Part shown: positions 1-18,329 of the stretch, piece by piece
Layout of the letters: the number at the start of each line of letters is the position of its first letter
How positions within the stretch are numbered: the first letter of the stretch is position 1
From: Bacilli bacterium
GTDB lineage: Bacteria > Bacillota_I > Bacilli_A > RFN20 > CAG-826
Direction: 5' to 3'
NCBI GenBank assembly: GCA_024693415.1
Contig: JAILKX010000127.1
Coordinates: 1 to 18,600 of the forward strand
DNA length: 18,600 bases
Translations under genes and position numbers: made by a program
The notes under the pieces: generated by a model
What the model was told of the DNA's origin: nothing
Databases searched by the model: none
Seen by the model: only the letters and a program-made list of their open reading frames with translations

Positions 1-143
1 CCTTCCCGTCGCTTCGCCCGAAAGGGCCATTCCAGAAGCCTTGGGGTAGCTCCCCTCCGCTCAGCCTGGCGTGGACGTGCGTGAATAACCAGGGCGTTAA
101 CCTGTTGTAGGATGAAGGTCCGTCGGAATGTGAAGAACCGATT
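1..143 (+). ncRNA. Possible 3' part of a structured RNA (unidentified)
   Basis: No reading frame here looks like a protein. The stretch is GC-rich and has several short hairpins: GCCC-GAAA-GGGC at 16-27, closed by a GNRA-type tetraloop; GGGG-TAGCT-CCCC at 43-55; and CCTGG (65-69) pairing with CCAGG (89-93). It leads straight into an intrinsic terminator at 144-167. That pattern fits the 3' end of a non-coding RNA whose 5' end lies before the window. I looked for rRNA, tmRNA, SRP RNA, RNase P and T-box signatures and recognised none. It could also be the untranslated tail of an upstream transcript or the end of a short ORF (frame 3 is open to about 110). Confidence 0.3.
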
Positions 144-167
144 AAGGCGGCTTGTTCCGCCTTTTTT
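144..167 (+). terminator. Intrinsic terminator after the left-edge transcript
   Basis: A seven-base-pair stem AAGGCGG (144-150) / CCGCCTT (157-163) with the loop CTTGTT runs into a T tract ending at 167. It ends whatever is transcribed from the left edge and separates it from the ESCRT-like operon. Confidence 0.85.
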
Positions 168-389
168 CGTCGTTTCTGCCACGCGAAACGGCCACCCCGC
201 AGACCGCTCACGCTCATCTCGGGCGGCCCCTTTGGCACTTTTTTGGCGCTGGGGGTTGTTTAATAGTTTTTGGCAAAAGCCTCCATTAAATGATTTGACG
301 CGCATGTTTATGTGCACGCGTCCATGCATTTGTGGTAAACTTTTGGACAATAATATGAATATGCGCACAAAGCGCAGAAGGGGAAACAT
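168..389 (+). promoter_or_regulatory. Leader and probable promoter region of the ESCRT-like operon
   Basis: This gene-free stretch must hold the promoter of the eight-gene operon. The best -10 candidate is TAATAT at 351-356, but its upstream partner (TTGTGG at 330-335) is too close for a good -35 match, so the promoter may be weak, activated, or read by another sigma factor. A TTGACG at 295-300 has no matching -10. Two small inverted repeats could be operators or leader hairpins: GCGCAT/ATGTGC at 300-315 and GCGC/GCGC at 363-375. The Shine-Dalgarno AGAAGGGGA at 376-384 sits five bases before the ATG at 390. Confidence 0.4.
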
Positions 390-1337
390 ATGCCTTGGTT
401 CACAGACGTGATCGAACTTGAGATGAAAGACTCTCGCAACAACCTGGTCGAGAAATACACTTTCGACGTCAGGAAACGCAACATCCAAATCAAGGTGAAG
501 CCCGGCTACGAAGCCATCGTGAACAACACCAAGTTCCTCGGCGGACAGACTCAGGATTTCACCAAGAAGAACTTCGGGGATTCCGTGATCGCCTTCGTCT
601 ATCAGCCCGCGAGGCTGAACGACCCGATCCTCATCCCGTTCTTCGCCGGCCAGCATACGGTGTCGCTCGACACCCATAAGACCGCGAAGGCGAAATTCGC
701 CCTCGTCGGCGAGGCTTCGGTCGAGGTCGCCGATTACATGGCGCTTGCGCGTTATTTCGACGCGACCATCTCGCTTCAGGACGTCGAGAACCGCCTGAAC
801 GAGGTGTTCAAGGATCCCTTCTCCACCCAGGTCACCGCGGCGGCGAAGACCCATATCAACAGCGCCTCCACCGACGTGAGCCTCTATTCGGAGCTTCCGG
901 CCATCGCCAAGGACGCTTCTCACGGCTCGGCCGCGAAGAAGCTCTTCGACATGGGGTTGGTCCTCGGCTCCCGCGGCATCGCGATGCGCCTCAACCCGAT
1001 CGGGGAGACGAGCGAGATCATCGATAGGATCAACGATGCCTTCAACAACAAGGCGATGGAGCAGTTCGACGAAGAGAAGATCGAGAAGCTACGCGGCTGG
1101 GAGATCGAGGACCGCAACGCGGCCAACCAGCACGAGATCGACGTCATCAACGCCCATCACACCAACACGAGCAACCAGAACACATCCAATACCTACAATT
1201 ACAACGGCAACGTCCCGCAGCAGCCCGTCCAGGAGCCCAGGCAGCAGCCGAAGAGGCATTTCTGCCCCAACTGCGGCAGGGAGCTTCAGGGCCACGAGGC
1301 CTATTGCCCCGACTGCGGCAACAAGATCGTTAAATAA
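390..1337 (+). CDS. SPFH-like protein with C-terminal zinc ribbon (YdjI-like)
   Basis: This 315-residue protein heads the operon. Residues about 30-215 read like an SPFH/band-7-type fold. The opening IKVKPGYEAIVNNTKFLGG resembles the first strands of that family, which scaffolds membrane microdomains. A polar Asn/Gln-rich linker (about 250-288) joins it to a C-terminal zinc ribbon with CPNC at 292-295 and CPDC at 306-309. There is no signal peptide or clear membrane span, so it probably sits on the cytosolic side of the membrane. The architecture recalls the family of B. subtilis YdjI ('virion core protein'-like), which is encoded beside a PspA-type protein in ydjFGHI. PspA is itself a bacterial ESCRT-III relative, so the context fits. 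Its likely role here is recruiting or organising the downstream filament proteins at the membrane. The zinc ribbon is clear; the SPFH call is from memory of the family. Confidence 0.7.
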   Translation: MPWFTDVIELEMKDSRNNLVEKYTFDVRKRNIQIKVKPGYEAIVNNTKFLGGQTQDFTKKNFGDSVIAFVYQPARLNDPILIPFFAGQHTVSLDTHKTAKAKFALVGEASVEVADYMALARYFDATISLQDVENRLNEVFKDPFSTQVTAAAKTHINSASTDVSLYSELPAIAKDASHGSAAKKLFDMGLVLGSRGIAMRLNPIGETSEIIDRINDAFNNKAMEQFDEEKIEKLRGWEIEDRNAANQHEIDVINAHHTNTSNQNTSNTYNYNGNVPQQPVQEPRQQPKRHFCPNCGRELQGHEAYCPDCGNKIVK

Positions 1338-1339
1338 AT

Positions 1340-1345
1340 AAGGAG
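1340..1345 (+). promoter_or_regulatory. Ribosome binding site for the second operon gene
   Basis: AAGGAG lies ten bases before the ATG at 1356, just past the TAA of the SPFH-like gene. It supports translation within one transcript. Confidence 0.75.
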
Positions 1346-1355
1346 TTTACACACC

Positions 1356-2312
1356 ATGGGACTATTTGGCTTTAAGAGCAAAGAAGAGAGAATGAAGGAG
1401 GCCAAGGAGAAGCAGCGCCAGGCCGAGATCCGCGGCAACGCGGGCGGCGTCGAGGCCGACCCGAAGAAGACCGCCAACAACAAGAAGGCAAACGACGCCC
1501 AGATCGCCGACAACCAGGCCGTCCAGAGGGAAAAGGACGCCCTCGACGCCGCGCTTCGCACCCTCTATAACGAGATGAGCCGCAAGGAGTGCGACGACGC
1601 CGCGATGGACGCCATCCGCGACGACCTGCTCCCCCAGATCCGCGCCTTGCAGCTAGAGGGCGAGCTTTTCGACATGCAGACCACCTCCTCCTTCCTCAAG
1701 GACGCGATCAAGTCCGTGATGGTCGCGGTCCAGCAAGGCGACAAGTTCGCCGCCATCATCGGCAAGAACTTCATCCAGGAATGGATCAGCAAGCTTTCGA
1801 CCCCTGGCTTCACCAAGCACTTCCACAACCCGAAATACGTCAAGTCCGTCCGCGACGAATTCAGCCTGAGGTTCTCGATCGAGCGCGCCGAGCGCATCCT
1901 CGAGCAGAACCGCCTCGCCGGGCAGAAAATCGTCGAACAGGCCAACGCCAAGCAGATCTCCGGCGCCCGCGCCCAGGCCGAGATCGATAAGCTCAAGGTC
2001 GCCAACGGCAGGCTGCGCAACCAGATCGCGACCTGGAACAACCAGCTCAATTCCGTCCAGGCCATCATCAGCGCCGAGGAGATGGTCAACGTCGCCGAGG
2101 AAGCCGGATCGATGGACCTGACCGACAGGACCAACGAGGTCCTCGACAGGAAGCAGGACATGACCGACGACTTGAATTCCGCCGCCAAGTCCGCGGCGAA
2201 GCTCGACGAGAACAACCTCGCCTCCACCGGGATGGACATCACCGGTTTCAGCGTCAACGAGGCCCCGGTCAACGACGATGCGCCGGCAACCCTCGACCTG
2301 AGCGGCCTATGA
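1356..2312 (+). CDS. Long helical protein with ESCRT-III-like N-terminus
   Basis: This 318-residue protein is almost all helix and charged coiled coil. It begins MGLFGFKSKEER, strikingly like the N-terminal LFG motif of ESCRT-III subunits (for example CHMP3, MGLFGK), a segment that helps those proteins bind membrane. A basic, Lys-rich region (10-50) is followed by helices at about 50-150, a less regular Trp/Phe/Pro-containing segment (about 140-170), and a long amphipathic helix region (about 175-290). The tail is acidic and ends LDLSGL. It has no membrane span and no enzyme motif. It lies 18 bases after the SPFH-like gene and 14 before the next ESCRT-III-like gene. I infer a filament-forming or filament-nucleating subunit of the ESCRT-III/PspA superfamily. 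It is longer than usual (about 200-240 residues), so an adaptor role is also possible. A plain coiled-coil protein of another family cannot be excluded. Confidence 0.55.
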   Translation: MGLFGFKSKEERMKEAKEKQRQAEIRGNAGGVEADPKKTANNKKANDAQIADNQAVQREKDALDAALRTLYNEMSRKECDDAAMDAIRDDLLPQIRALQLEGELFDMQTTSSFLKDAIKSVMVAVQQGDKFAAIIGKNFIQEWISKLSTPGFTKHFHNPKYVKSVRDEFSLRFSIERAERILEQNRLAGQKIVEQANAKQISGARAQAEIDKLKVANGRLRNQIATWNNQLNSVQAIISAEEMVNVAEEAGSMDLTDRTNEVLDRKQDMTDDLNSAAKSAAKLDENNLASTGMDITGFSVNEAPVNDDAPATLDLSGL

Positions 2313-2313
2313 T

Positions 2314-2320
2314 GAGGAGA
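2314..2320 (+). promoter_or_regulatory. Ribosome binding site for the third operon gene
   Basis: GAGGAGA starts two bases after the TGA of the previous gene and lies six bases before the ATG at 2327. It fixes that start and suggests tight translational coupling. Confidence 0.75.
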
Positions 2321-2326
2321 TGAACC

Positions 2327-2905
2327 ATGTTCGGAAAGAAAGAGCAACCCCCGGTCGACAAATCCGAGATCGACCGCAAATTCAGGACGACCCTCCGCGG
2401 CATTCAGCGCACGATCGACGGCTATGAGGAGAAGATCCAGGCCGAATTCGACAACGCCGTCAACTACCGCAAGGCCGGCAACATCGACGAGGAATCCCGC
2501 TGCATGAGGAAGATCTCGCGCCTTATGGCCGCCAAGATCCAGAAAGAGGAATTCTACGATAACGTCGAACAGGTCCAGGAACGCATCGACGATATGCTCG
2601 ACCAGGCCGCGGTTTCCCGCACCCTAGCCGACACCTACTCCGGGCTCGACAACCTCGTCGATTCCCGCGAGATGAAGTCGATCGTCAAGCAGCTAGAAGG
2701 CTTCAACAAGACCTTCGCCAAGGCCGGAAACATGATGGATGCCTTCATGAGCACCGTCGATTCGACCGTATCCAACAACCAAGTCAGCCAGACCTATTCC
2801 CCGACCGTGCAGGCGATGCTCGATCAGCGGATGAAATCGGTCGAGCAGCGCATAGAGGAGAAAGTGGAACAGGAGCAGGGGGCTGCTTCCATGTTCACCC
2901 TTTAA
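2327..2905 (+). CDS. ESCRT-III-like (Snf7/CHMP-type) protein with MIM1-like motif
   Basis: This 192-residue protein has the size and helical layout of an ESCRT-III subunit. It opens MFGKKEQPP, like the LFG start of CHMP2/CHMP3. A basic first helix (about 12-48) and a long second helix (about 52-105) form the hairpin-like core. The segment 114-145 (EMKSIVKQLEGFNKTFAKAG and onward, rich in Met) resembles helices 3-4 of CHMP1-type proteins. A flexible linker (about 146-160) precedes a C-terminal helix with AMLDQRMKSV at 163-172. This is close to the eukaryotic MIM1 consensus (D/E)xxLxxRLxxL, the motif that Vps4 MIT domains bind. The next gene, three bases on, encodes a Vps4-like ATPase with an MIT-like N-terminus. 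Expected role: polymerise on the membrane and be remodelled by that ATPase. A PspA-type relative is the main alternative, but PspA proteins lack this tail. Confidence 0.7.
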   Translation: MFGKKEQPPVDKSEIDRKFRTTLRGIQRTIDGYEEKIQAEFDNAVNYRKAGNIDEESRCMRKISRLMAAKIQKEEFYDNVEQVQERIDDMLDQAAVSRTLADTYSGLDNLVDSREMKSIVKQLEGFNKTFAKAGNMMDAFMSTVDSTVSNNQVSQTYSPTVQAMLDQRMKSVEQRIEEKVEQEQGAASMFTL

Positions 2906-2908
2906 ACC

Positions 2909-4117
2909 ATGGAAAGCATCAACAGCATCCGCAACCGCTTCATCGACATCAAGAAGCAGGCCGAGGCTGCGATACTCGTCAAGGACTTCGCCTCCGCCAA
3001 AATGCATCTACAGAAGGCGGTCGAGATCCTGCGCGACCTCTATCAGCGCGACACCAATCCCAAGAATCGCGAGGATTACGTCACCGCGATGAACACCCTG
3101 CGCGCCCAGCACGATCGCTGCCTCCAGGAGCTAGGCGAAGCCAAGAAGGTCCCCCTTCAGGCGACCAAGCGCCCGGTTCAGCAGAAGCCCGCGGGCGGAA
3201 AGGCTGAGCCCGGGAAGCCGGCGGACGATGGCATCACCTACGAATTCAATGGGATCGACGTCAAGAACTTCCTGACCCAGGAAGCGCGCTCGAAGGTCAC
3301 CTTCAGCGACGTCATCGGCATGGAGGAGGAGAAGCGGATCGTCCGCCAGGAGCTCTTCCTCACCCCCGAGCAGATGGAATACAAGAAATCGCTCGGCCTC
3401 GACCCCAAGAACTTCATCTTGCTCTACGGCCTCCCCGGCACCGGCAAGACCTTCTTCGCGATGGCGCTCTCGAACGAACTAAGCGCCTTCTCGAGCTCCG
3501 ACATCCCCTTCTTCTCGGTGCTCTGCACCCAGCTCAAAGGGTCGCTCGTCGGCCAGACCGAGAACAACATCATCGCCCTGTTCGAATTCACCAAGCAATT
3601 CGACCGCTGCGTCCTCTTCATGGACGAATTCGACGCCATCGGCATGTCGCGCACCCAGGCTTCCAACGACCCGACCGCGATCCCGACCGTCAACACCCTA
3701 TTGACCCAATTGTCCGGCTTCTCGTCGAACCCGAACCTCTTGTTCCTCGCCGCGACGAACTGCCCGTACAACCTTGACGGCGCCCTTCTTTCCAGGGCCG
3801 CCTTAAGGATCGAGGTCCCCCTTCCCTCTGCTGCGGTGCTTGAGGCATTGCTCAAGAGGAAGCTTGGCAACAAGGTCGACCAGTCCGTTGACCTCGCTAG
3901 CCTCGCCAGGGCCCTCGAGAAGGGAAAATACTCCAACCGCGACGCCTCGAACTTCATCCAGGCCGCCCTGTCCGAGGTCTTCAACGCCCACCTCGCAGAT
4001 CCCTCCGTCAACCTGATCGACGTGAACATGATCAACCTTGCTCTAAGCAAGGCGAAGTCCTCGATCAAGGCCAACGAAGAAGCGCGCCTCGAGGCGTTCA
4101 AACTCCAGGGAATCTGA
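2909..4117 (+). CDS. Vps4-like AAA+ ATPase with MIT-like N-terminus (first copy)
   Basis: A 402-residue protein in three parts. Residues 1-75 form an MIT-like three-helix bundle (KDFASAKMHLQKAVEIL fits the MIT helix 1-2 pattern). Residues 80-125 are a Pro/Lys/Gly linker. Residues 128-402 are an AAA+ domain. Walker A is GLPGTGKT (174-181), Walker B is VLFMDE (235-240) with catalytic E240, and sensor 1 is AATN (281-284). The C-terminal EARLEAFKLQG matches the terminal helix of the Vps4/katanin/spastin clade. Two features are unusual. The pore-loop aromatic (KWMG in Vps4) is replaced by SLVG at 212-215, and the Arg-finger region reads LLSRAALRIEV rather than RRRF. It may therefore hydrolyse or translocate differently from the second copy. 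It lies three bases after an ESCRT-III-like gene. Expected job: disassemble or remodel the filaments. Cytosolic. AAA+ is certain, Vps4-like is strong. Confidence 0.88.
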   Translation: MESINSIRNRFIDIKKQAEAAILVKDFASAKMHLQKAVEILRDLYQRDTNPKNREDYVTAMNTLRAQHDRCLQELGEAKKVPLQATKRPVQQKPAGGKAEPGKPADDGITYEFNGIDVKNFLTQEARSKVTFSDVIGMEEEKRIVRQELFLTPEQMEYKKSLGLDPKNFILLYGLPGTGKTFFAMALSNELSAFSSSDIPFFSVLCTQLKGSLVGQTENNIIALFEFTKQFDRCVLFMDEFDAIGMSRTQASNDPTAIPTVNTLLTQLSGFSSNPNLLFLAATNCPYNLDGALLSRAALRIEVPLPSAAVLEALLKRKLGNKVDQSVDLASLARALEKGKYSNRDASNFIQAALSEVFNAHLADPSVNLIDVNMINLALSKAKSSIKANEEARLEAFKLQGI

Positions 4118-4155
4118 TCGAATATCGATGCACGTCCCTCACCGATTCACCAACT

Positions 4156-4163
4156 AAAGGAGA
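4156..4163 (+). promoter_or_regulatory. Ribosome binding site for the fifth operon gene
   Basis: AAAGGAGA lies six bases before the ATG at 4170. The 52-base gap before this gene is the largest between the first seven operon genes and separates the two ESCRT-III/ATPase pairs. I saw no terminator or convincing promoter in it. Confidence 0.8.
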
Positions 4164-4169
4164 AAATCC

Positions 4170-4763
4170 ATGAATGAACTAAAACGCAAAATGAAGATGA
4201 TGGAAGAGAAGCAGGAAGCGAAAGAGATCATCAAGCAATTCGATTCCGTCATCGTCAAGCTCGACAACGGCATCGCCCAATGCCGCGAAAAGGCCAAAGA
4301 AGCCCTGCTCAAGAGGAACGACATGAATTCCTTCAAGATGTTCGGGCGCTCGATGAAGTATTACACCAACATGAAGAACTCCATCGAGACCATCAAGTGC
4401 CAATTCGAGAACTACTTGATCCAGGTCGAGGTCGCCAACACCTTCGTCGGCCTCAAAGGGGTCCTTGGCAAAACCGCGAAGATGATGGACTCGATGCCCT
4501 CCCTCCGCCAGAACAGCCGCGACTTCATGAAGTTCAAGAAGTCAATCATGAAGGGCCAGCTCTCGATGGATTCCATCAACTCGATGATGGCCAACATCGA
4601 CCCCTCCGCCGATTCCGAGATGTCGGTCGACGAGATCAACGCCCTCAAGGACGAGATCATGATGTCTTCCGGCGCCTCCCAGGTCCAGGTCGGCAACACC
4701 GACACCAACAAAGGCACATCCACCGAATCGCAGGGCGATTTCTTCCAAGAGCTCGACATCTGA
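4170..4763 (+). CDS. ESCRT-III-like helical protein (second pair)
   Basis: This 197-residue protein has an ESCRT-III-like plan. A basic first segment (MNELKRKMKMM) is followed by two long helices at about 12-48 and 52-100 (ENYLIQVEVANTFVGLKGVLG), then Met-rich shorter helices at 101-142. Residues 150-165 (MSVDEINALKDEI) form an acidic helix. A Ser/Thr/Gln-rich linker ends in DFFQELDI. The helix order and Met-rich third and fourth helices match the small ESCRT-III-like protein encoded at 2327-2905, but the sequences are very diverged, suggesting an old duplication with specialisation. No MIM1-like RL motif is obvious, so the acidic DFFxEL tail may be the ATPase contact. The partner ATPase gene starts three bases downstream. 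Confidence is moderate: the fold is inferred from pattern and from repetition of the gene-pair arrangement. Confidence 0.6.
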   Translation: MNELKRKMKMMEEKQEAKEIIKQFDSVIVKLDNGIAQCREKAKEALLKRNDMNSFKMFGRSMKYYTNMKNSIETIKCQFENYLIQVEVANTFVGLKGVLGKTAKMMDSMPSLRQNSRDFMKFKKSIMKGQLSMDSINSMMANIDPSADSEMSVDEINALKDEIMMSSGASQVQVGNTDTNKGTSTESQGDFFQELDI

Positions 4764-4766
4764 TCC

Positions 4767-5930
4767 ATGGCCTTCGATTTTCAAACAAAGCTCAAAACCT
4801 ACGAGGCCGCTTTGTCGAAGACCAAGGAGTGCCTATTGGCCAATGACACCACCAGCGGCTCCATGTACCTAGCCAAGGCCATCGAGCTTTCCGCCGAATT
4901 GGCCGCCAATGCCGCGGTCTCCGATTTCAAGGTGCGCTTTTCGACCGAGCATGCGCGCCTTTTGAAGATCGACGCCGCTTTGAAGTCCGGCAATAACCCC
5001 TTCCTCAAGAAGGCGACCAATAACGCCGGCAACTCCCCGAAATCCGAAAAAGACGGCAAGGATGATGAGCCGACCGGGTTCTTCAAGAAGGACATCCCCT
5101 CGGTCACCCTCGCCGACGTCGCGGGCCTAGAGGAGGTCAAGCGCGAGATCAAATTGAACGTCTTGCTCCCCCTCCAGAACCCCGACCTCTATTTCCGCTA
5201 CAAAGACGAAACGGGAAGCCGAATATTGATGTACGGCCCCCCTGGATGCGGCAAATCCTTCGTCGCCGAATGCATCGCGGGCGAACTAAAATGCGCCTAT
5301 GCGGTCCTAAGCGTCGCCGACATCCTCGACAAATACGTCGGCGAAGCGCCTAAGCGCGTCAAGGCGATCTTCGACGAAGCCGAGAAGTACGATAACTGCC
5401 TCCTCTTCTTCGACGAGATCGATTCCCTCGGCGCGAGCCGCGATTCCGATGAGTCGAGCCACACCAAAGACGTCCTGACCGCGTTTTTGACCTGCATGTC
5501 GGGATTTAAGCCCAAGGGCAAATCCCTCAAGGTCATCATCGCCGCCACCAATAGGCCGTGGTCGCTTGATAGCGCCTTGATCCGCGGCCAGCGCTTCGAC
5601 ACCCAGCTTTACGTCACTTTGCCTGACGATGAGGCGAGGATGTTTTTCGTGAAGAAAGCCTTCAAGAAGCATCCCGAGCTCATCGAGGGAAGCGACCTCA
5701 CCATGGAGCACATGGTTGAGCAATTGGATGGGTTCTCGGGCGCCGATATTACGACAATCCTTGCAAAAACCAAGGATTCCGCCCTCGCAAGGGCCCTCGA
5801 GGAGAAACCGCAAGAGGGCTATTGCAAGGTCACCAAAGCCGATTTCGATGGGGTCATTGAGAATTACCGCAACCCGATCACCCCGGATTCCCTGATGCGC
5901 TTCGAAGCGTTCAGGAAGGGGGTTATCTGA
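4767..5930 (+). CDS. Vps4-like AAA+ ATPase with MIT-like N-terminus (second copy)
   Basis: A 387-residue protein with the same plan as the first ATPase. Residues 1-75 form an MIT-like helical bundle, residues 76-108 a charged linker, and residues 110-387 the AAA+ domain. Motifs are canonical: Walker A GPPGCGKS (157-164), pore loop KYVGE (189-193) with aromatic Y190, Walker B LLFFDEID (212-219) with catalytic E217, sensor 1 AATNRP (259-264), an Arg finger in RGQRFD (273-278), and the FSGADI sensor-2 region (323-328). The C-terminal SLMRFEAFRKG matches the terminal helix of Vps4/katanin-type ATPases. It therefore looks like the fully competent translocase of the cluster. FtsH is excluded: there is no membrane anchor and no HEXXH protease. 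It is coupled to its ESCRT-III-like neighbour (gap of three bases), and its stop codon overlaps the next start by one base. Confidence 0.9.
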   Translation: MAFDFQTKLKTYEAALSKTKECLLANDTTSGSMYLAKAIELSAELAANAAVSDFKVRFSTEHARLLKIDAALKSGNNPFLKKATNNAGNSPKSEKDGKDDEPTGFFKKDIPSVTLADVAGLEEVKREIKLNVLLPLQNPDLYFRYKDETGSRILMYGPPGCGKSFVAECIAGELKCAYAVLSVADILDKYVGEAPKRVKAIFDEAEKYDNCLLFFDEIDSLGASRDSDESSHTKDVLTAFLTCMSGFKPKGKSLKVIIAATNRPWSLDSALIRGQRFDTQLYVTLPDDEARMFFVKKAFKKHPELIEGSDLTMEHMVEQLDGFSGADITTILAKTKDSALARALEEKPQEGYCKVTKADFDGVIENYRNPITPDSLMRFEAFRKGVI

Positions 5931-7159
5931 TGAACAGCACCGACTTGCTCCGCATCGTGAAGGACTGCATCTCGCGCGGCGATTTCGCTAGGGCGGTTCC
6001 GCCGCTAGAGAAATTGCTCCGACTTCTGAAGCTCGATTACGATAACGGCATCAACCGCACCCAGAACGGCAAAGCGTTCAACTCCTTGCTCAAAGTCCGC
6101 AGGGAATTGCTCGCCGGTGAGCTTAGCGACGCTTCCTATGCATTATTGAAGCTTCAGGCCCCGCGCAAAGCCGAGCCGCCGAAACCTGAGCCGCCGAAAC
6201 CTGAGCCGCCGAAGCCCGCACCGAAGCCCGCCGATGACGACATCTGGAACGTGAGGCCCGCACCCGACCCCATTCCATCCGACAACGCCGGCGAAGAGGA
6301 GATCATCGAGATCGAGAATCCCGAACCCGCCCCCGTCAAGGAAAGGGGCGACGAAAGGGACTTCGAATACGCCGACGCTTCGGGCGAAATCTACGGCAAA
6401 GCCGGAGATGGCCTCGTCATCGTGAAATACAACGGCGACAAGGAAGAGGTCACCGTCCCCGCCTCGTATGAGGGGAAAGCGGTGGTGGCCCTCGGCGAAA
6501 AAGCGTTCGCCGGCAATACCAAAATCACTGCCGTCCACCTGCCGGATTCCATCCGCTACGTGAGCGGATTCTATGGATGCAGCGCCCTTAGGAGCGTGAA
6601 TATCCCCGAGTCCGTCGTGGTTATCGCTAGCGAGGCCTTCTCGCAGTGCCTCGGACTTGAGATGCTGCGCATCCCGTCCTCGGTGAACGAGATCGGAGGC
6701 TTAGCCTTCTATATGTGCGGCGCCGACGTCGTCGTCGACCCCGCCAACAAAGCCTACTGCAACGACGAATGCGGGGCGCTTCTCGACAAGCACAAGGTGC
6801 GGCTCATCCGCTTCCCGGTGCTCCGCCGCGACGAGAAATACGAACTGCCGCGCTCCATCCAGGAAATCGAGCCGTTCGCCTTCGCCGGATGCGAGGTGCT
6901 GCAAAGCGTCACCTTGCCCGTCGGTTTGGAGAAAATCGGACAGCGCGCATTCGAGAAATGCTCATTCCCGTCGATCCGGATCCCGTCAGGGGTCGAGCGG
7001 ATCGATTCCGAAGCCTTCATGGGCGAGGCGCTCACCGTGATGTGCGACGTCCCGGTGAAGCCCGAGGAATGGGCCGCCGACTGGTGCGTGGGCGCGAACG
7101 TCATCTGGGGAGGAGCCTCCTCCGACGAATTCTTCGCCGACCTGCCGCCGCTAGACTGA
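5930..7159 (+). CDS. MIT-like / proline-rich / BspA-type leucine-rich repeat protein
   Basis: A 409-residue protein whose ATG shares its A with the preceding TGA (TGATG), so translation is probably coupled. Residues 1-75 form a helical bundle; ISRGDFARAVPPLEKLLRLL matches the MIT pattern seen in the two ATPases. Residues 78-100 are a PPKPE repeat and 101-145 an acidic Pro-rich linker. Residues about 150-395 hold LRR_5 (BspA-type) repeats, recognisable from recurring phrases such as VTVPASYEGK, KAFAG, VNIPESVVVIASEAF and IPSSVNEIGGLAF. There is no signal peptide, whereas many BspA-type LRR proteins are exported. The tail DEFFADLPPLD resembles the DFFQELDI tail of the second ESCRT-III-like protein. 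Likely role: an adaptor that binds ESCRT-III tails through its helical domain and a target through its LRR face. LRR is secure; the MIT call is inference. Confidence 0.75.
   Translation: MNSTDLLRIVKDCISRGDFARAVPPLEKLLRLLKLDYDNGINRTQNGKAFNSLLKVRRELLAGELSDASYALLKLQAPRKAEPPKPEPPKPEPPKPAPKPADDDIWNVRPAPDPIPSDNAGEEEIIEIENPEPAPVKERGDERDFEYADASGEIYGKAGDGLVIVKYNGDKEEVTVPASYEGKAVVALGEKAFAGNTKITAVHLPDSIRYVSGFYGCSALRSVNIPESVVVIASEAFSQCLGLEMLRIPSSVNEIGGLAFYMCGADVVVDPANKAYCNDECGALLDKHKVRLIRFPVLRRDEKYELPRSIQEIEPFAFAGCEVLQSVTLPVGLEKIGQRAFEKCSFPSIRIPSGVERIDSEAFMGEALTVMCDVPVKPEEWAADWCVGANVIWGGASSDEFFADLPPLD
6173..6232 (+). repeat. 15-bp tandem repeat encoding PPKPE
   Basis: GAGCCGCCGAAACCT occurs at 6173-6187 and again at 6188-6202. 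A variant copy (GAGCCGCCGAAGCCC) follows at 6203-6217, and then a decayed one. It stays in frame and encodes the stiff proline linker between the helical and LRR domains. Repeat number could vary between strains. Confidence 0.9.
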
Positions 7160-7213
7160 AAACGTTGATTCATGGGGGACGTGTATGCGTTCTCCGATAA
7201 AAAAGAACCTATT

Positions 7214-7225
7214 GAAGGGGGAAAG
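7214..7225 (+). promoter_or_regulatory. Ribosome binding site that fixes the protease start
   Basis: The purine run GAAGGGGGAAAG lies just before the ATG at 7229. Its strength, against nothing upstream of 7172, decides the start codon. Confidence 0.8.
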
Positions 7226-7228
7226 ATT

Positions 7229-8152
7229 ATGGATGTGAAAGAAAGATGCCCGGTCTGCAAAGGCGGACTATTCATGGAGAAAGCCGATGGGTCGCGCGTG
7301 TGCGCTAAGTGCGGCTACGCGATCGTCAAGGCCAAGAAGCCTTATCCCGCGGAAAAAAGCGTCGCCTCCAAAGGAAGTGAAGCGACGGGGGTCGCCTGCG
7401 TGCAGTGCGGAAGCCCCGCCAAATTGCTCCGCTTCGACCCGGATGGAGTGGGGGTCTATAGCTGCACCCTCTGCGGCCATACCTTCCGCAAGGAGCCTAA
7501 AGCCTCCCCAAAGCAAGAAGCCCCCAAGGAAAAGAAGCTCGACGGGCGCGATATCTTCAACCTCGCCAAGGGCAATACGGTCGAGGTCGTCTCCCATTAT
7601 GACAAGACCAGGAGCCTCGGCAGCGGATTCATCTTCTCCGATGGCTTTATCTTAACCAACGCCCACGTCGTCTTCCGCAACGTCTATGATGAAGGCGAGC
7701 CGATCCCCTGCAAGAAAGTCACCGTCAACTACAAAGGCGGCGAATCGATCCCGGCACAGCTTGTCGCCGCGACGATCAGGGAGGATATGGCGATCCTCCA
7801 TATCGATCAGCACACCCCGAACATCGCGACCATCGCCAAGGAAATGCCTGAGACCGGCGAAGCGATCTTCGCGGTCGGCAATTCCAATGGCGAAGGCATG
7901 TGCATCCTCGAAGGCATCGTCGCGGACCAATTGCGCGACGTCTATGACCTGCCCTTCATGATGACGAGCGCCAACACGGTGCACGGCAATTCCGGCGGAC
8001 CGATCTTCTCCACTAAGGGCGAAGTCGTCGGCGAACTGACGCTAGGAAGCAGTGAGGCGGTCGCGATGAACTACGCGATCCCCATCACGAGGATCCGTCG
8101 TTTCATCCAGAGCGTTTCGGCGGAGGCGCATATCCCCTTCAAGCTGAAATAA
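7229..8152 (+). CDS. Trypsin-like serine protease with two N-terminal zinc ribbons
   Basis: I chose the ATG at 7229 because AAGGGGGAAAG lies just upstream; the in-frame ATG at 7172 has no good site. The product is 307 residues. Zinc ribbon 1 has CPVC (7-10) and CAKC (25-28); zinc ribbon 2 has CVQC (57-60) and CTLC (79-82). A Lys/Pro linker leads into a chymotrypsin-fold protease of the HtrA/DegP family (about 108-305). The triad is visible: H146 in LTNAHVV, D186 in REDMAILH and S255 in GNSGGP. There is no PDZ domain, signal peptide or membrane anchor, so unlike most HtrA proteins it should be cytosolic. As the last gene of the operon it may process or clear filament proteins, or cleave a target on activation. 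The zinc ribbons echo the one on the SPFH-like protein. The protease fold is certain, its role is inferred. Confidence 0.9.
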   Translation: MDVKERCPVCKGGLFMEKADGSRVCAKCGYAIVKAKKPYPAEKSVASKGSEATGVACVQCGSPAKLLRFDPDGVGVYSCTLCGHTFRKEPKASPKQEAPKEKKLDGRDIFNLAKGNTVEVVSHYDKTRSLGSGFIFSDGFILTNAHVVFRNVYDEGEPIPCKKVTVNYKGGESIPAQLVAATIREDMAILHIDQHTPNIATIAKEMPETGEAIFAVGNSNGEGMCILEGIVADQLRDVYDLPFMMTSANTVHGNSGGPIFSTKGEVVGELTLGSSEAVAMNYAIPITRIRRFIQSVSAEAHIPFKLK

Positions 8153-8190
8153 GCGCGAATTCGCATACACGTCCTCAACGGATTTGAAAA

Positions 8191-8212
8191 AAGCGGGCCT
8201 TGCGGTCCGCTT
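8191..8212. terminator. Bidirectional terminator between convergent genes
   Basis: AAGCGGGCC (8191-8199) pairs with GGTCCGCTT (8204-8212), with one G-T pair, around a TTGC loop. The right side runs into TTGTTTTATTT for the + strand operon. The left side has an A run (8187-8192) that gives a T tract on the - strand for the GGDEF/EAL gene ending at 8216. The hairpin closes both transcripts. Confidence 0.85.
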
Positions 8213-8215
8213 GTT

Positions 8216-11200
8216 TTATTTATCGAACAGAACTGGCTCAGGCGTCTCCTTGCCTTCCTTCTTCGCCTTCTTGTGGCGGTAGAGGTCTTCGTCGGCGATG
8301 CCGTAGAGCTTATCGATCCTCGTGCCGTCCTCAGGGATGAGGGCGAAGCCGGCGGAGCAGTGGATGGCGTGGTCGAGGCCCGTCTTCTTGCCGCATTCGG
8401 CAAGGGCGCGGTCCAGCAGGTTCCTGACCTTGTTGCGGCTGAAGTGCCTGGGGCGCTTCTTGAGCAATAAGCAGAACTCATCGCCGCCGAAGCGTGTCAC
8501 GATATCGTATTCCTCAGGCAATGTCGCGAGGGCGTCCTTGATTTCGGCGAGCACGCGGTCGCCAAGCGGATGCCCATAGTTGTCGTTCAGGGCCTTGAAA
8601 CCGTCGATATCGAGGATGATGAAGGCCATTTTATCGATGGGGTGCACCGAAATATAGCGGTTCATGAGCGCCGAGCCTGCGTTGCGGGCCAATAGCCCAG
8701 TGAGGATGTCGTAGTCCTTCATCCGCATATCGGTTACGTCTTCGCTGTAGAAGCAGGCGTAATGGCGGCCCTTGAAGTAGTAGGTCTGGATGCGGACGCG
8801 GAAGTAGCGGTTCCTCGCGTGGATCTTGTAATTGAGCTCGAAGCACTGGTTGGTCCTCGAGACTTCGCGGAGGTATTCGAGCTTCATCTTCTCGGCGATG
8901 CCTGGGCGGTCGGTCTCGGCGACATAGGAGAGGAACATCGGGTAATAATCGTTTTCGTATTCGCCTTGGCGGAAGAGCTTGTTGTCGAAGGCGGTGTCGT
9001 TCAGCCTCACCTGCAAGAAGCGGTCTTCGTCGAGGTCGATCTCGGTATAGTAGACGGCGACCGCTTTCAAAGAAGCGAGCGCGCGGTCGAAGAATTCGAA
9101 TCCGTCGCTGACGGTTTCGACGAAGTGGGCGCGGTCGTGGGCCATGAGCTGGATCGAAATCGCGAGGCAATCGTCGTCGTCGATGACGGCCGGCGTGATG
9201 TCGACGGTCCTGATCGTGGAATCGTCGGTGTCGTAGAAGCGCCTTCTGCCGATATGCTGAGGATAGTTCGGCCCGAAGATATCGCTGACGTTCTTCACCT
9301 TATCAAGCGCGGGATAATAGCGGAGCGCGGTCTGATTGTAGGATTTGATGTCCCCGTTTTTCTCGGTGAGGATGTATCCGGTGAACTTGAGGTTCGAGAA
9401 ATACCGCTCGAACTGCTCGGAGGTGAAGGTATTGATGGTGGTGAGCCCGTTCGTGCTGCGATCGGCTGGCGAGGCGGTCATCAGGAAGTACCTTTCCTGG
9501 CCATCGCGCTTCAGAAGCATCGAGGCGATGTTGAAGCGATATAGCTGGACGCCATGCTGGAATGTGACGGTCTGCGGGTCGCCGAATTCATAGAGATTCT
9601 TCGGGCCCCTGAGGCATTCGAGGGCACCTTTGCGGCTTTTTTCGACAAGCATGGAGAGCAAATCGGTGCGGAAGAAGTGCTCGGGCGTGCCGATCTTGGC
9701 GACGGTCGCGATGAGCGTCTGGTTGATGAATATCGGCATCAGGGTGTTGCCGTCGAAGCGGTAAATGCCGATCGGCGCCGGGAAGTTCTGCGCGAAGAAA
9801 TTGAGGTTGGTCTTATCGTCGAGGATCTCGTTGAGGAGCATCTTCGAGTCGGCGCTGTTGGAGAGCTGGAATTCGGCGCGCTTGTTCGCGAGCGCCTCGA
9901 ATTCGGGGATCGGCATCGCCTTGCCGAACAGGAAGCCCTGGACATAGCGGACGCCATGGGCGCGGAAATAGCTCGCGTCGGATTCCTCTTCGACGCCTTC
10001 GATGACGATGGGGATGCCAAGGCTTCTTGAGAGCGAGATGATCGATTCGATGATCTTGCGCCTCTTTTCGCCAGACCCGCGCTTCTGGAGGAACTTATAG
10101 TCGAGCTTGATGGTGTCGATGTCGAGGTTCTTGAGCGAGTTGAACGAGGACTTGCCGGAGCCGAAGTCGTCCATCAGGATGCGGATTCCCGCCGCGTGGC
10201 ATTTCTCGATGAAGGAGATGATCTTCTGCTCGAAGTCGACGTAGGCCGATTCGGTGATCTCGATTTCGATGAGGTTCGCGGGGATGCCGGCGTCCTTGAT
10301 GATGGACATGGTATGTTCGAACAATCCGTCGTCGGCGAAGTCGATGCGCGAATAGTTGACCGAGATCGGGACGACCTCATGCTTGCCGTCCTTGAGCCAT
10401 TTGGCCTGCAGTTCGCAGACTTTCTTAAGGACATATAGGTCAAGGTCGTGGCAAAGGCCATTGCTTTCGAATAGCGGGATGAATTGGCCCGGCAGGACCA
10501 CTTCGTCGTGCTTTCCCCAGCGCACGAGCGCTTCGCCGCTATAGTAGCGGTTGGTCTCAAGGTTGTAGCGGGGCTGGATGTAGACCTTGAATTCCTCATT
10601 GGCGATCGCCTTCCTGAACTGGTCGGTCAATAACTGGTCGTGCTTCTCGGTTTCGGCCATCTCGTCGTCGAAGATGACGATGGAGAGGAAGGGGTCTTCC
10701 TTGGCTTGGGCGTGGGCGAAGGCCACCTTGAGCGAGGCGGCGGCGAAGGATTCGGTCCTATCCTTGATCTGATAGATGCCGAACGCCATATTGATGAGCA
10801 TCTCGGGGTAGAGGCTGCGGATCTCGGCGTTGATGTTCTGCGCCTCGATGAGGAGGTTCTCCGCCAAGCCGTTGGTCACGATGTAGAAGACGTCGGACCC
10901 ATAGCGCCTTGAGATGAAGGAGCGCGGGTATTTGCGCTTCAATATGCCGGCGACCGAGACGAGCAGCTGGTCCGCCTTGGCGACGCCATAGCTGCGGCTG
11001 ATCATCCTGAAGCGCGAGATGTCGAGCGCCATCATGACGACCGGGGTGTTCTTGTGCTCGTTCAGGAACTGGATGTAGCCGGTGTCGGCCGCCATGTTCC
11101 ACGGGAGCATGGTGAGGCTATCGAAGTAGAGGTTCGAATAGAGCTGGCCGCGATAGATCAAGGTTCCGATCGCGTTCCCGGCGAAATCGGCGAGGAAAAA

Positions 11201-11941
11201 ATCAAAAGACCCCCCGACCGTCTTGGGATTCGAGAGCACTAAGAACCCCGCCATTTCGCCCTCGATGAAGAAGGGCATGATCAGCACGCGGTGGATCCCG
11301 AGCTCGAGGAATGTGTTGTAGAGCTGCTCATCGAAGGCGGCGAAGCCCTCGACGCTTTCGCAGAGCAACGAATAGCCTTTGGAGAAGAAGTTGGCGAACG
11401 AATTGATCCAATATTCCTTGATCTTGACGTGGCGGGGCTTGGGATTCTCATCCTTGCCTAAGGCGTATTGCAAAAGATCCCCCTCCGTCTTCGCTTCGTC
11501 GGTGAAGATGATGAGGTGGGCGTATGGCGATTTGTAGTAGGCGATGGTCTTCTGGACGACCTGGTCGATCAAAAGGTCATGGTTGCGCTTGCCCTTATCG
11601 GTGGAGAGGAAGTCGACGTCGATCTCCTCGCGGATCCCGGACTCGATGTGCGAGATGGTGGTCCTTAGGTCCATGTCGTAGGACAAAGCGGTCTTCGGGA
11701 AGACGCGCTCATAGGCCTCGATGACGCATTGCCGGCCATCGATGGTGTCGAGGTAGGAATTGACGGAAAGGAATCTTTCGTCGAACGGCGGCACCTTTCC
11801 GTTCAGCCTTCTGATCTCCTGCTTGTAGGCTTTGTTGAACAGGAGGTTTTCGCGGGTGTTCGCGTCTTCGATGATGATGAAATTCGGGCAGAGGTCGAAC
11901 TCGGCGATGGATTTCATCTTCTTATAAGGGGTGAGGTCCAT
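8216..11941 (-). CDS. Large hybrid c-di-GMP protein: GAF / degenerate GGDEF / EAL / PAS / GGDEF
   Basis: I chose the ATG at 11941 (MDLTPYKK, 1241 residues). The in-frame ATG at 11968 lies inside the -10 element, and the longer open frame further upstream crosses the nagB terminator. Residues about 120-265 look GAF-like. Residues 270-425 are a degenerate GGDEF domain (YGSDVF at 347-352). Residues 435-685 are an EAL domain with GEALVRW (E470), VNYS, EITES, DDFGSG (591-596), IKLD and EGVE, so probably active. Residues about 715-1070 are PAS-like sensor regions. Residues 1075-1230 are an intact GGDEF (1152-1156) with DIDGF upstream. The RxxD inhibitory site is absent (EEYD at that place), so product feedback is unlikely. 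There is no membrane span. The protein could both make and break c-di-GMP under ligand control. It is an isolated gene ending at the shared terminator. Confidence 0.9.
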   Translation of the reverse strand: MDLTPYKKMKSIAEFDLCPNFIIIEDANTRENLLFNKAYKQEIRRLNGKVPPFDERFLSVNSYLDTIDGRQCVIEAYERVFPKTALSYDMDLRTTISHIESGIREEIDVDFLSTDKGKRNHDLLIDQVVQKTIAYYKSPYAHLIIFTDEAKTEGDLLQYALGKDENPKPRHVKIKEYWINSFANFFSKGYSLLCESVEGFAAFDEQLYNTFLELGIHRVLIMPFFIEGEMAGFLVLSNPKTVGGSFDFFLADFAGNAIGTLIYRGQLYSNLYFDSLTMLPWNMAADTGYIQFLNEHKNTPVVMMALDISRFRMISRSYGVAKADQLLVSVAGILKRKYPRSFISRRYGSDVFYIVTNGLAENLLIEAQNINAEIRSLYPEMLINMAFGIYQIKDRTESFAAASLKVAFAHAQAKEDPFLSIVIFDDEMAETEKHDQLLTDQFRKAIANEEFKVYIQPRYNLETNRYYSGEALVRWGKHDEVVLPGQFIPLFESNGLCHDLDLYVLKKVCELQAKWLKDGKHEVVPISVNYSRIDFADDGLFEHTMSIIKDAGIPANLIEIEITESAYVDFEQKIISFIEKCHAAGIRILMDDFGSGKSSFNSLKNLDIDTIKLDYKFLQKRGSGEKRRKIIESIISLSRSLGIPIVIEGVEEESDASYFRAHGVRYVQGFLFGKAMPIPEFEALANKRAEFQLSNSADSKMLLNEILDDKTNLNFFAQNFPAPIGIYRFDGNTLMPIFINQTLIATVAKIGTPEHFFRTDLLSMLVEKSRKGALECLRGPKNLYEFGDPQTVTFQHGVQLYRFNIASMLLKRDGQERYFLMTASPADRSTNGLTTINTFTSEQFERYFSNLKFTGYILTEKNGDIKSYNQTALRYYPALDKVKNVSDIFGPNYPQHIGRRRFYDTDDSTIRTVDITPAVIDDDDCLAISIQLMAHDRAHFVETVSDGFEFFDRALASLKAVAVYYTEIDLDEDRFLQVRLNDTAFDNKLFRQGEYENDYYPMFLSYVAETDRPGIAEKMKLEYLREVSRTNQCFELNYKIHARNRYFRVRIQTYYFKGRHYACFYSEDVTDMRMKDYDILTGLLARNAGSALMNRYISVHPIDKMAFIILDIDGFKALNDNYGHPLGDRVLAEIKDALATLPEEYDIVTRFGGDEFCLLLKKRPRHFSRNKVRNLLDRALAECGKKTGLDHAIHCSAGFALIPEDGTRIDKLYGIADEDLYRHKKAKKEGKETPEPVLFDK

Positions 11942-11963
11942 AATTATGAGGTCTTTCGGATAT

Positions 11964-11994
11964 ATCATACCAAAGAAAAACGGTTTGGGGACAA
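11964..11994 (-). promoter_or_regulatory. Extended -10 promoter for the hybrid c-di-GMP gene
   Basis: On the - strand TGGTATGAT (11964-11972) is an extended -10 element. TTGTCC at 11989-11994 is a plausible but weak -35 with a 19-base spacer. It places the transcript start about 15-20 bases before the ATG at 11941. The leader would be very short and has no clear Shine-Dalgarno. Confidence 0.6.
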
Positions 11995-12050
11995 GAACTT
12001 CGCGCGTTTGCTTGCATACGCGAGATATTGGACCTTTTTGCAAAAGAGTC

Positions 12051-12074
12051 AAAAAACCTCCGCTATAGCGGAGG
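12051..12074 (-). terminator. Intrinsic terminator after nagB
   Basis: On the - strand CCTCCGC-TATA-GCGGAGG (12057-12074), a perfect seven-base-pair stem, is followed by six Ts (12051-12056). It ends the glmM-acetyltransferase-nagB operon. Confidence 0.9.
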
Positions 12075-12095
12075 CTTGGATATCGGAAATTGATA

Positions 12096-12818
12096 TTACC
12101 TGCAGAGGCTGTAGGCGTCTTCGTCGACGTAGACGGTGACGTCGGGGTGGTCCTGGAGGATGGAGCAGGGCATATCCTCGGTCTTCGGGCCCTTGATGAG
12201 GCCATAGACCGCCTTCGCCTTGTTCTTGCCGGTGGCGATCAGGACGATCTTGCGGGCATTCATGATGGATTTGAGGCCCATGGTGACGGCCCTGATCGGG
12301 ACTTCGGAGATGTCATTGAAGAGGCGGCTGTTGTCCTTGATGGTCTGCTCGGTGAGCGGGGTCTCGTGGGTCAAGGAATCGAACGGGGTGCCCGGCTCGT
12401 TAAAGGCGATGTGGCCATCGCTTCCGATGCCGAGGATCTGGATGTCGATGCCGCCGGCTTTGGCGATCTTGTCATCGTACTGGTTCATGAAGGTGACGTA
12501 GTCGCCGACGCCAAGGAGGACGTTGGTGTTCTTCTTGTCGACGTCGATGTGGTTGAAGAGGTTCTCGTTCATGAAGTAGCGGTAGCTTTGGTTGTGGGTG
12601 CCCTCGAGCCCGACGTATTCGTCGAGGTTGAAGGTGGTGACGCCCTTGAAGGAGACGCGGCCCTCTTTGCAGGCCTTCGCCATATCGGCATAGACCTTAA
12701 GCGGGGAGGTGCCGGTGGCAAGGCCGAGGACGGCATTGGGTTTCGCTTTGACGACTTCGATGAAGTCCTCAGCGATCATTTCGGAGATCTTCTCTTCGGT
12801 GTTGACGACGATTTTCAT
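12096..12818 (-). CDS. nagB: Glucosamine-6-phosphate deaminase
   Basis: This cytosolic 240-residue enzyme converts glucosamine-6-phosphate to fructose-6-phosphate and ammonia. The length is right for the short NagB form found in Firmicutes. Visible motifs are the phosphate loop LGLATGTSP (31-39), TFNLDEYVGL with catalytic base D66, and GIGSDGHIAFNEPG (130-143) with H136 and E141. The Shine-Dalgarno AAAAGGA lies about 9 bases before the ATG. The gene is 16 bases after the acetyltransferase gene and is last in the operon, directly before a terminator. It returns amino sugar to glycolysis, opposing the biosynthetic direction of its two operon partners, so the operon as a whole sets amino-sugar balance. 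Confidence 0.96.
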   Translation of the reverse strand: MKIVVNTEEKISEMIAEDFIEVVKAKPNAVLGLATGTSPLKVYADMAKACKEGRVSFKGVTTFNLDEYVGLEGTHNQSYRYFMNENLFNHIDVDKKNTNVLLGVGDYVTFMNQYDDKIAKAGGIDIQILGIGSDGHIAFNEPGTPFDSLTHETPLTEQTIKDNSRLFNDISEVPIRAVTMGLKSIMNARKIVLIATGKNKAKAVYGLIKGPKTEDMPCSILQDHPDVTVYVDEDAYSLCR

Positions 12819-12834
12819 TTTTGTGTTTTCCTTT

Positions 12835-13500
12835 TTATTTTTTCGCGACGACGACGCGGGTGGATTTGACGATGGAGTTTTCGGGGTAGACGCCGCGGCA
12901 CATGGTGAGCGGGTAGACCTGGGTGTTCTTGCCGATGATGGTGCCGGGGTTCAATACCGAGCCGCAGCCGATGTCGGCGTGGTCGGCGAGGAAGGAGCCG
13001 ATCTTGCGGATGCCGGTCGGGACGTCTTCGCCTTCGTTATGGATGATGACGGGTTTGTTGTCGGATCTCAGGTTCGAGAGGATGCTTCCCGCGCCCATGT
13101 GGGCGTAGCTGCCGAGCACCGAATCCCCGACGTAGTTGTAGTGGGGGACCTGGGTGTGGCGCATGAGGACCGCGTTCTTGAGCTCGGAGGAGTTGCCGAC
13201 GACCGATTCGTCGCCGACGACGACGTTGCCCCTGATGTAGGCGCCGGGGCGGACCTCGACGTTATTGCCGAGGACGCATGGCCCGTTGATGGTCGCGGTG
13301 TCGGCGATCTTGACGTTCTCGCCGACGAGGACCCCTTCCTTGAGGAGCTTGTAGCCCGGGATTCCCTTCTCGACGAGCCCTTTGGCGAATCCGCCGATCA
13401 GGGGGAGGAGCTCCCAGGGGTTCTCTTTCGAGAAGACGAATTCGTCGATGTAGTCGACCCCGCATTTGTCATAGAGGTCGACGATCTTAATTCTGCTCAC
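12835..13500 (-). CDS. Left-handed beta-helix acetyltransferase, GlmU C-terminal-like (predicted GlcN-1-P N-acetyltransferase)
   Basis: A 221-residue protein. Residues about 55-215 carry hexapeptide repeats such as VLVGENVKIADTATINGP and VVVGDESVVG. The segment HTQVPHYNYVGDSVLGSYAH resembles the GlmU acetyltransferase stretch around its catalytic His (VGHLSYIGD), making H120 the likely catalytic residue; GAGSILSN parallels the GlmU GAGT motif. There is no nucleotidyltransferase domain, so it would acetylate glucosamine-1-phosphate, the product of the upstream GlmM, but could not by itself make UDP-GlcNAc. The start is GTG, supported by AGGGAGG eight bases upstream. It overlaps the end of the glmM frame by 14 bases. 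An alternative is another sugar acyltransferase of the same fold. Confidence 0.75.
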   Translation of the reverse strand: MSRIKIVDLYDKCGVDYIDEFVFSKENPWELLPLIGGFAKGLVEKGIPGYKLLKEGVLVGENVKIADTATINGPCVLGNNVEVRPGAYIRGNVVVGDESVVGNSSELKNAVLMRHTQVPHYNYVGDSVLGSYAHMGAGSILSNLRSDNKPVIIHNEGEDVPTGIRKIGSFLADHADIGCGSVLNPGTIIGKNTQVYPLTMCRGVYPENSIVKSTRVVVAKK

Positions 13501-15130: not shown

Positions 15131-15143
15131 AATTTTCCCTCAT

Positions 15144-15262
15144 GCAACTGTTGGTTGCTTTTGTTGCGACAATTGTTTTGTCGGGCAATTATCGACCCAA
15201 AAATCACTATTAATCAAGAAAAATTTTTCGTGCGGATGTCGTGTTAATTTTTGTTGCGCAAC
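15144..15262 (-). promoter_or_regulatory. Cluster of GTTGC/GCAAC inverted repeats around the glmM promoter (putative operators)
   Basis: Several related inverted repeats flank the promoter: GTTGCGCAAC (15253-15262, perfect), CGACAA/TTGTCG (15167-15183), TTGT-TGCG-ACAA (15161-15172) and GCAAC/GTTGC (15144-15158). The shared GTTGC/GCAAC core upstream and downstream of the promoter suggests operators for a dimeric HTH protein. The fused HTH domain of this operon is the obvious candidate. Some repeats could instead act as leader hairpins. Confidence 0.5.
15188..15217 (-). promoter_or_regulatory. Sigma-A-type promoter of the HTH-glmM operon
   Basis: On the - strand TTGATT (15212-15217) and GATAAT (15188-15193) are separated by 18 bases. 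The predicted start is near 15181, giving a leader of about 50 bases before the ATG at 15130. Confidence 0.75.
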
Positions 15263-15356
15263 CAAGATTTTTGAAAACTTAAGATGCTGTCCTCAGTTTT
15301 CTTGAACTCAAAAAATGTCAAGAGGGCAATTTTAGTCCCTAAATATTTTTCGCATG

Positions 15357-15377
15357 AAAAAGGCGCCCGCAGGCGCC
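15357..15377 (-). terminator. Intrinsic terminator after the membrane EAL gene
   Basis: On the - strand GGCGCC-TGCG-GGCGCC (15362-15377) is followed by TTTTT (15357-15361), twenty bases after the stop codon of the EAL gene. Confidence 0.85.
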
Positions 15378-15397
15378 ATGGTTTCAGGAGTTGCGAC

Positions 15398-17524: not shown

Positions 17525-17530
17525 AAAAGT

Positions 17531-17536: not shown

Positions 17537-17551
17537 TCACACGCGCGAAAA

Positions 17552-18295: not shown

Positions 18296-18329
18296 GCCAC
18301 CATTTTCTCACCTTTTCCCGTTTTTGCGG

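Follow-up and report, generated by a model that had tools for sequence, protein, structure and literature searches.

The stretch of DNA analyzed here, referred to as the window, comprises 18,600 nucleotides of contig JAILKX010000127.1 from the Bacilli bacterium assembly GCA_024693415.1 (positions 1 to 18,600, forward strand). Its genes at 390..8152 probably represent a conserved bacterial operon encoding two Snf7-type proteins of the ESCRT-III (endosomal sorting complex required for transport III) kind, one of which exceeds the Pfam cut-off while the other falls short of it, with an AAA ATPase directly after each. For the first ATPase an MIT domain is predicted, and the Snf7-type proteins are putative membrane-bound polymers that the ATPases would take apart. 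Profile matches and structure models support the presence, in a bacterium, of Snf7-type proteins adjoining an ATPase for which an MIT domain is predicted. It is thus likely that this bacterium both assembles polymers that shape membranes and takes them apart, a combination that, according to published surveys, bacteria lack.

All eight open reading frames (ORFs) of the operon lie on the plus strand, with intergenic gaps, in operon order, of 18, 14, 3, 52, 3, -1, and 12 bases, bearing out a first-pass annotation made from the sequence alone, which had described eight tightly packed genes. Twice, a Snf7-type gene is followed 3 bases on, in the same frame, by an ATPase gene (2327-2905 then 2909; 4170-4763 then 4767), indicating two Snf7-ATPase pairs. 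The features are listed in Table 1.

Table 1. Features of the window and of the second, divergent system
Feature	Position	Strand	Basis
Terminator-like hairpin upstream of operon	144..163	+	Hairpin scan
Zinc-ribbon protein, 315 aa	390..1337	+	Zinc ribbon; SPFH family not confirmed
Long helical protein, 318 aa, MGLFG N terminus, no known family	1356..2312	+	Best Pfam match 0.12
ESCRT-III/Snf7-family protein a, 192 aa	2327..2905	+	Pfam Snf7 (PF03357) over cut-off; AF2; Foldseek
MIT-AAA ATPase 1, 402 aa, predicted MIT at about residues 1-77	2909..4117	+	Pfam AAA 3.2e-30; structure model
ESCRT-III/Snf7-like protein b, 197 aa, C-terminal DFFxELDI	4170..4763	+	Snf7 below cut-off singly; family matches
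MIT-like AAA ATPase 2, 387 aa, Vps4/CdvC-like	4767..5930	+	Pfam AAA 2.9e-37; NCBIfam CdvC
MIT-like leucine-rich repeat (LRR) protein, 409 aa; probable third ATPase gene without AAA domain	5930..7159	+	LRR_5 2.7e-32; comparison with relatives
Double zinc-ribbon trypsin-like (HtrA-like) serine protease	7172..8152	+	Trypsin_2 1.5e-23; motifs
Terminator-like hairpin at operon end	8191..8212	+	Hairpin scan
Second system: 203 aa helical protein, Snf7 protein, AAA ATPase, trypsin-like protease, RuvB-like ATPase	L108:6536-11443; also L113, L114, L115	-	

The first-pass annotation had named two small ESCRT-III-like proteins, of which one was confirmed and the other weakly so. Protein a matched Pfam Snf7 at 2e-6 with 28.1 bits, over the cut-off of 27.3; Snf7 was found in 17 of the 18 members of its family (E up to 1), with by far the best E-value among the families matched. 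An AF2 model of protein a (pLDDT 75) contained helices at residues 12-49, 53-108, 114-149, and 159-189, that is, a long predicted alpha1-alpha2 hairpin followed by shorter helices, and so showed the helical hairpin by which the annotation had proposed to judge the ESCRT-III assignment. With this model, Foldseek placed archaeal CdvB2/CdvB at ranks 1-10, at E 2.5e-3 to 0.11 and with low TM-scores, and VIA superposed 106 residues of the hairpin on CHMP2A-CHMP3 at 2.6 A, BAR domains scoring higher. A PDB profile search with the family alignment returned an unrelated protein at 0.11, then CHMP1B at 0.17. Protein b alone reached only 0.01 and 15.9 bits against Snf7, below the same cut-off; at family level, Snf7 was matched by 33 of the 34 proteins (E up to 1; 1e-7 for the best), more than any other Pfam family, and the tail of protein b ends in a conserved DFFxELDI following a variable linker. 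The alignment of protein b had no PDB match at E up to 1, and hhalign, working on shallow alignments, gave 12% between the two Snf7 types, no clear match. When six genomes were scanned with the Snf7 profile, 10 of the 11 matches fell in these operon genes, and PspA_IM30 (PF04012) had no match at E up to 1 at the window-type genes of six relatives.

Each of the two ATPases has one classical AAA cassette, in which Walker A, Walker B, and sensor 1 are intact, so that the AAA+ assignment in the annotated "two Vps4-like AAA+ ATPases with MIT-like N termini" stands for both. As for the N termini, the N-domain of ATPase 1 was modeled at pLDDT 89.1, and Vps4 MIT domains ranked first for it in Foldseek (best E 0.051) and in VIA, where the top rank was an archaeal Vps4 MIT; a MIT bundle is thus predicted on ATPase 1, and the N-domain of ATPase 2 is MIT-like by the look of its alignment only. 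In profile searches, Pfam MIT gave only below-cut-off matches for the ATPase 1 type, and the N-domain profile met keratin and TPR chains first in the PDB, with Atg38 at 0.12 and CdvC (4lcb) at 0.28. Against NCBIfam, ATPase 2 was best matched by CdvC with 167.2 bits (cut-off 650, not reached), compared with 157.7 for PAN and 157.3 for CDC48, and ATPase 1 scored 104.7 bits with FtsH and 84.7 with CdvC. p97/Cdc48-type chains were the best PDB matches of the AAA cores. Because the oligomerization domain Vps4_C (PF09336) was absent among the 24 Pfam families of ATPase 2 at E up to 10, this protein is filed as Vps4-like and not as Vps4.

The gene at 5930, annotated as an MIT-like LRR protein, retains its LRR assignment and is, as judged from comparison with its relatives, a third ATPase gene lacking its AAA domain. 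The N-domains of the ATPase 1 and third-gene families matched each other with an hhalign probability of 89.6%; no match was obtained, from shallow alignments, between ATPase 1 and 2 (3.4%) or between ATPase 2 and the third gene (0.7%). In the relative L019, N-domain, AAA, and LRR parts are joined in one ORF, whereas the window counterpart has N-domain and LRR with the AAA part missing, and in L018, L003, L015, and L016 the third gene consists of N-domain and AAA.

Seven loci (the window, L019, L018, L003, L014, L015, and L016) share the order zinc-ribbon protein, long helical protein, Snf7 a, ATPase 1, Snf7 b, and ATPase 2. Six genomes besides that of the window thus keep the order, identities of the recognizable genes going down to 25-56% in the most distant one, and a third N-domain-AAA gene continues it in five of the six relatives, the L014 contig ending before that point. 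Between the window and L019, dN/dS was about 0.09-0.15 for both Snf7-type and both ATPase genes. Such conservation of order, together with these ratios, indicates that the arrangement is more than chance. In L015, ATPase 1 is additionally followed, ahead of Snf7 b, by a second copy of its gene that starts near the AAA part and has no N-domain (L015:7470-8360, minus strand).

In the order of genome G001, the profile of protein b matched seven of 279 genomes, one of them spuriously: the G055 match covered 88 residues of a 446 aa protein, had no ATPase match on its contig, and was dropped. ATPase 2, at E up to 1e-80, was found in exactly the other six, so that the 4170- and 4767-type genes co-occur in all six genomes having either, contrary to the lack of co-occurrence that, by the first-pass annotation, would have refuted its reading. 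A class-level draw of 395 genomes yielded G001 as the sole match. On plasmids, neither protein a (E up to 1e-5) nor P0130, a homologue of ATPase 2 (E up to 1e-40), had a match, and the protein at 390 met nothing but zinc ribbons; among viral contigs, protein b had no relative, and ATPase 2 matched AAA sequences alone, none of them above 37% identity. From the best 120 of 4,778 ATPase 2 matches, 32 homologues were aligned (33 rows) at 47-86% identity. Three homologues with the N-domain, P0130, P0142, and P0157 (48-52% identity), are named Clostridia or Candidatus Coproplasma, and given these sequences the system may be wider than the surveyed order. PspA passed its cut-off in 0 of the 279 genomes, operon-bearing or not, with weaker matches in five; no anti-correlation of operon and PspA, the idea being that one replaces the other, is therefore demonstrable.

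A phylum draw of 392 genomes (threshold E up to 1e-80) yielded one further locus, in genome G489, which revealed a second, divergent system. Here, a 208 aa Snf7 protein from another order (Pfam Snf7 1.8e-6, 28.2 bits, over cut-off) directly precedes a 398 aa AAA ATPase, then a trypsin-like protease and a RuvB-like ATPase. The AAA gene occurred in 4 of the 160 genomes of its order; the same five genes were present at all four loci, and the genes after them differed. Each of the enzymes bears an extra N-domain of ~75-80 residues, MIT-like in look; MIT was not among the Pfam families shown, and profile comparisons, made with shallow alignments, failed (0.2% and 15%). Equally shallow alignments gave no hhalign match between this Snf7 protein and the two window Snf7 profiles (0.4% and 2.4%), so that it provides separate support for the pairing of Snf7 and AAA genes in bacteria. 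An ORF recognized by eye as tyrosine-integrase-like lies near the system in L108 and, at 68% identity, in L114 (two of the four loci).

A bolder reading is that the class Bacilli has a true ESCRT system. Its two polymers would be of the Snf7 clade rather than the PspA clade, each with an MIT-bearing motor of the Vps4 type dedicated to it, and a third motor could shed its AAA domain and so turn into an MIT-LRR adaptor. In a second bacterial branch, located on mobile DNA, Snf7 and motors of the MIT type would be coupled to a protease with an MIT tag. We give this composite slightly less than an even chance.

Of the accessory proteins, the one at 390 had been annotated as an SPFH-zinc ribbon protein. 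Its zinc ribbon was found in all seven orthologues, and a BLAST match stood at the same position in all six relatives. The SPFH identity was dropped: Band_7_1 gave eight matches in six genomes, none of them at this gene in the six relatives, Band 7 was not among the 25 of 57 Pfam families listed for the seven orthologues, and a PDB profile search gave no support. The long helical "LFG" protein was present as described and belongs to no known family; an ORF of 311-322 aa occupies its position in all six relatives, recognizable by BLAST in three, and its gene evolves fastest of the seven compared (pN/pS 0.70). The annotated zinc-ribbon serine protease also held up, carrying four CxxC, T-x-A-H, and GNSGGP motifs. 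Among the five loci extending far enough, three encode it (window, L019, and L018), and no protease gene was found in L015 and L016. The maximum 19-residue hydropathy was 1.13 for the protease and 1.45 over all eight proteins, none of which has a membrane-helix-like stretch, so all parts, the protease included, should be cytoplasmic or peripheral.

The hairpins bounding the operon are weak evidence for its limits, because the window contains 20 terminator-like sites against a shuffle mean of 11.9. Downstream, the genes are bacterial in kind. Two encode large GGDEF/EAL proteins (8216-12205 and 15398-17524, both minus strand), the former converging with the operon. At 13487-15130 (minus strand), an N-terminal Cro-type helix-turn-helix is fused to a phosphoglucomutase-family enzyme, and this gene adjoins those for a hexapeptide transferase and a glucosamine-6-phosphate isomerase family protein. 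The gene at 17552-18295 (minus strand) has a weak TnsA-like endonuclease match (0.0001, 23.2 bits; cut-off 26.5, not reached). An Rfam scan had no match above the gathering score.

Among known systems, the archaeal ESCRT/Cdv machinery (CdvB as ESCRT-III, CdvC as Vps4) is similar in having several Snf7-type proteins beside a single-cassette AAA ATPase with an N-terminal MIT domain, here a predicted one; CdvB2/CdvB came first for the window Snf7-type model, and CdvC was the best NCBIfam model for ATPase 2. The window-type operon differs in that it sits in Bacilli retaining FtsZ, has two or three ATPase genes instead of one and two Snf7-ATPase pairs, and adds zinc-ribbon, LRR, and protease parts. 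The methanogen "Meth_adaptin" ESCRT loci, in the parts of their description consulted (Makarova 2024, PMC11188069), likewise include an extra zinc-ribbon protein; theirs, however, is of the SPFH family, unconfirmed in the window, and is accompanied by GOLD and ProX, neither of which is among the Pfam families shown for the eight window proteins. Bacterial PspA, according to the sections consulted of two papers (PMC8581546, PMC11237479), is an ESCRT-III superfamily protein at the bacterial membrane that is also encoded with a zinc-ribbon partner, the YdjI-type SPFH/zinc-ribbon protein, whereas the PspA profile has no match to the window-type proteins of the six relatives.

A 2023 review states, in the part consulted, that a clear Vps4 homologue is lacking in bacteria (PMC7615534), and a 2025 paper on Asgard names PspA/Vipp1 as the branch that bacteria have (PMC11804906). 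The consulted portions of Ravi and colleagues 2024 (PMC11237479) report that some bacteria have proteins of the Snf7 clade and that, separately, Vps4-like or other AAA ATPases occur in some; there, however, a TPR/6TM gene takes the place of snf7 beside the Vps4-like genes, or the Snf7/PspA proteins are accompanied by a two-AAA protein, and a single-AAA ATPase with MIT next to several Snf7 genes is not described. Relative to these partly consulted accounts, the operon of Snf7-type and MIT-AAA genes differs in arrangement from the known bacterial Snf7/Vps4-like loci. The terms ESCRT, Vps4, and Snf7 were absent from Kaur and colleagues 2020 (PMC7159879), and among the matches listed in a search of the open literature (title and start of abstract; subscription papers and most preprints fall outside its scope) no paper described such a bacterial operon.

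As for how the operon might work, proteins a and b would co-polymerize on the inner face of the cell membrane, with the zinc-ribbon and long helical proteins recruiting or nucleating them. The MIT domains of the ATPases would then grip C-terminal tails, the DFFxELDI end of protein b being the likeliest handle, and by analogy with ESCRT biology, subunits would be threaded through the AAA ring, turning the polymer over and thereby driving remodeling or scission. The LRR protein would act as an adaptor bringing ligands to the polymer, since it has kept the N-domain without the motor, and the cytoplasmic protease may clip recruited clients. Membrane repair or envelope maintenance, in a lineage without PspA, would be the likeliest service.

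The same polymer machine could instead serve cell division or defence, and as either would use it, the odds of these readings overlap with those of the one preferred here. In division, it would perform the final membrane scission after FtsZ leaves, as Cdv/ESCRT-III does in archaea and eukaryotes, and the consulted part of a review suggests such a role for ESCRT-III relatives in some bacteria (PMC7615534). The G057 operon (L014:4749-10384, minus strand) follows mraZ, mraW, ftsA, and ftsZ on one contig, albeit separated by a terminator-like hairpin after ftsZ, and in G002 the second gene downstream is ezrA, which encodes the septation ring regulator (L018:10479-12230, plus strand). Nevertheless, ftsAZ or ezrA is near only two of the seven loci (flanks of the others partly scanned), FtsZ is retained in all six relatives, and 273 of the 279 genomes of the order yielded no ATPase 2, indicating that the operon is not generally required for division there; we consider a division role rather unlikely. 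A defence or conflict system, in which LRR and zinc-ribbon modules serve as sensors of an intruder or of damage, the polymer brings together the parts with MIT domains, and the protease is the effector, appears to us improbable to a similar degree. It would suit the patchy presence (6 of 279 genomes), the variation of LRR and protease between loci, the weak TnsA-like gene in the window, and a Schlafen/AlbA-type gene with a RecG-like C-terminal part (L015:2700-3998, minus strand) that adjoins the third ATPase gene after the operon. The hint comes mainly from the divergent second system, where Snf7, AAA, and trypsin-like protease are coupled, differing genes follow, and the integrase-like ORF lies near two of four loci. 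In window-type loci, however, the partial flank scan met no integrase, the core genes are under strong purifying selection, and PADLOC matches read as generic AAA and protease homology only.

On a more skeptical view, the small helical proteins might be coiled-coil adaptors of an ordinary kind, and the ATPases might be a generic unfoldase, similar to Cdc48, that feeds the protease, the Snf7 likeness being a convergent helix pattern. The p97/Cdc48-type matches of the AAA cores, the VIA ranking of BAR domains above ESCRT-III, the low TM-scores to CdvB, and the lack of a clear mutual match between the two Snf7-like profiles would all fit, and Fib_alpha equals Snf7 in member count for the family of protein a. 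Snf7 nevertheless has by far the best E-value in that family and the most members in that of protein b, its matches in six genomes cluster in these genes, and in another order a third, divergent protein whose gene adjoins that of an AAA ATPase exceeds the Snf7 cut-off. Furthermore, Vps4 MIT domains are the top matches of the ATPase N-domain, and in L015 and L016, on contigs long enough, no protease gene was found. We therefore hold this explanation to be quite improbable, the least probable of those weighed, and retain the reading of Snf7-type polymers dismantled by their neighboring ATPases.

If Bacilli do own a true ESCRT system, ESCRT would be a machine of all three domains of life. With a bacterial locus that has both kinds of part and is kept as a unit, the disassembly of bacterial ESCRT-III polymers and the origin of ESCRT would become directly testable, and such a locus would give small genetic systems for ESCRT biochemistry. 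It also illustrates modular change, in which the loss of an AAA domain turns a motor gene into a possible adaptor.

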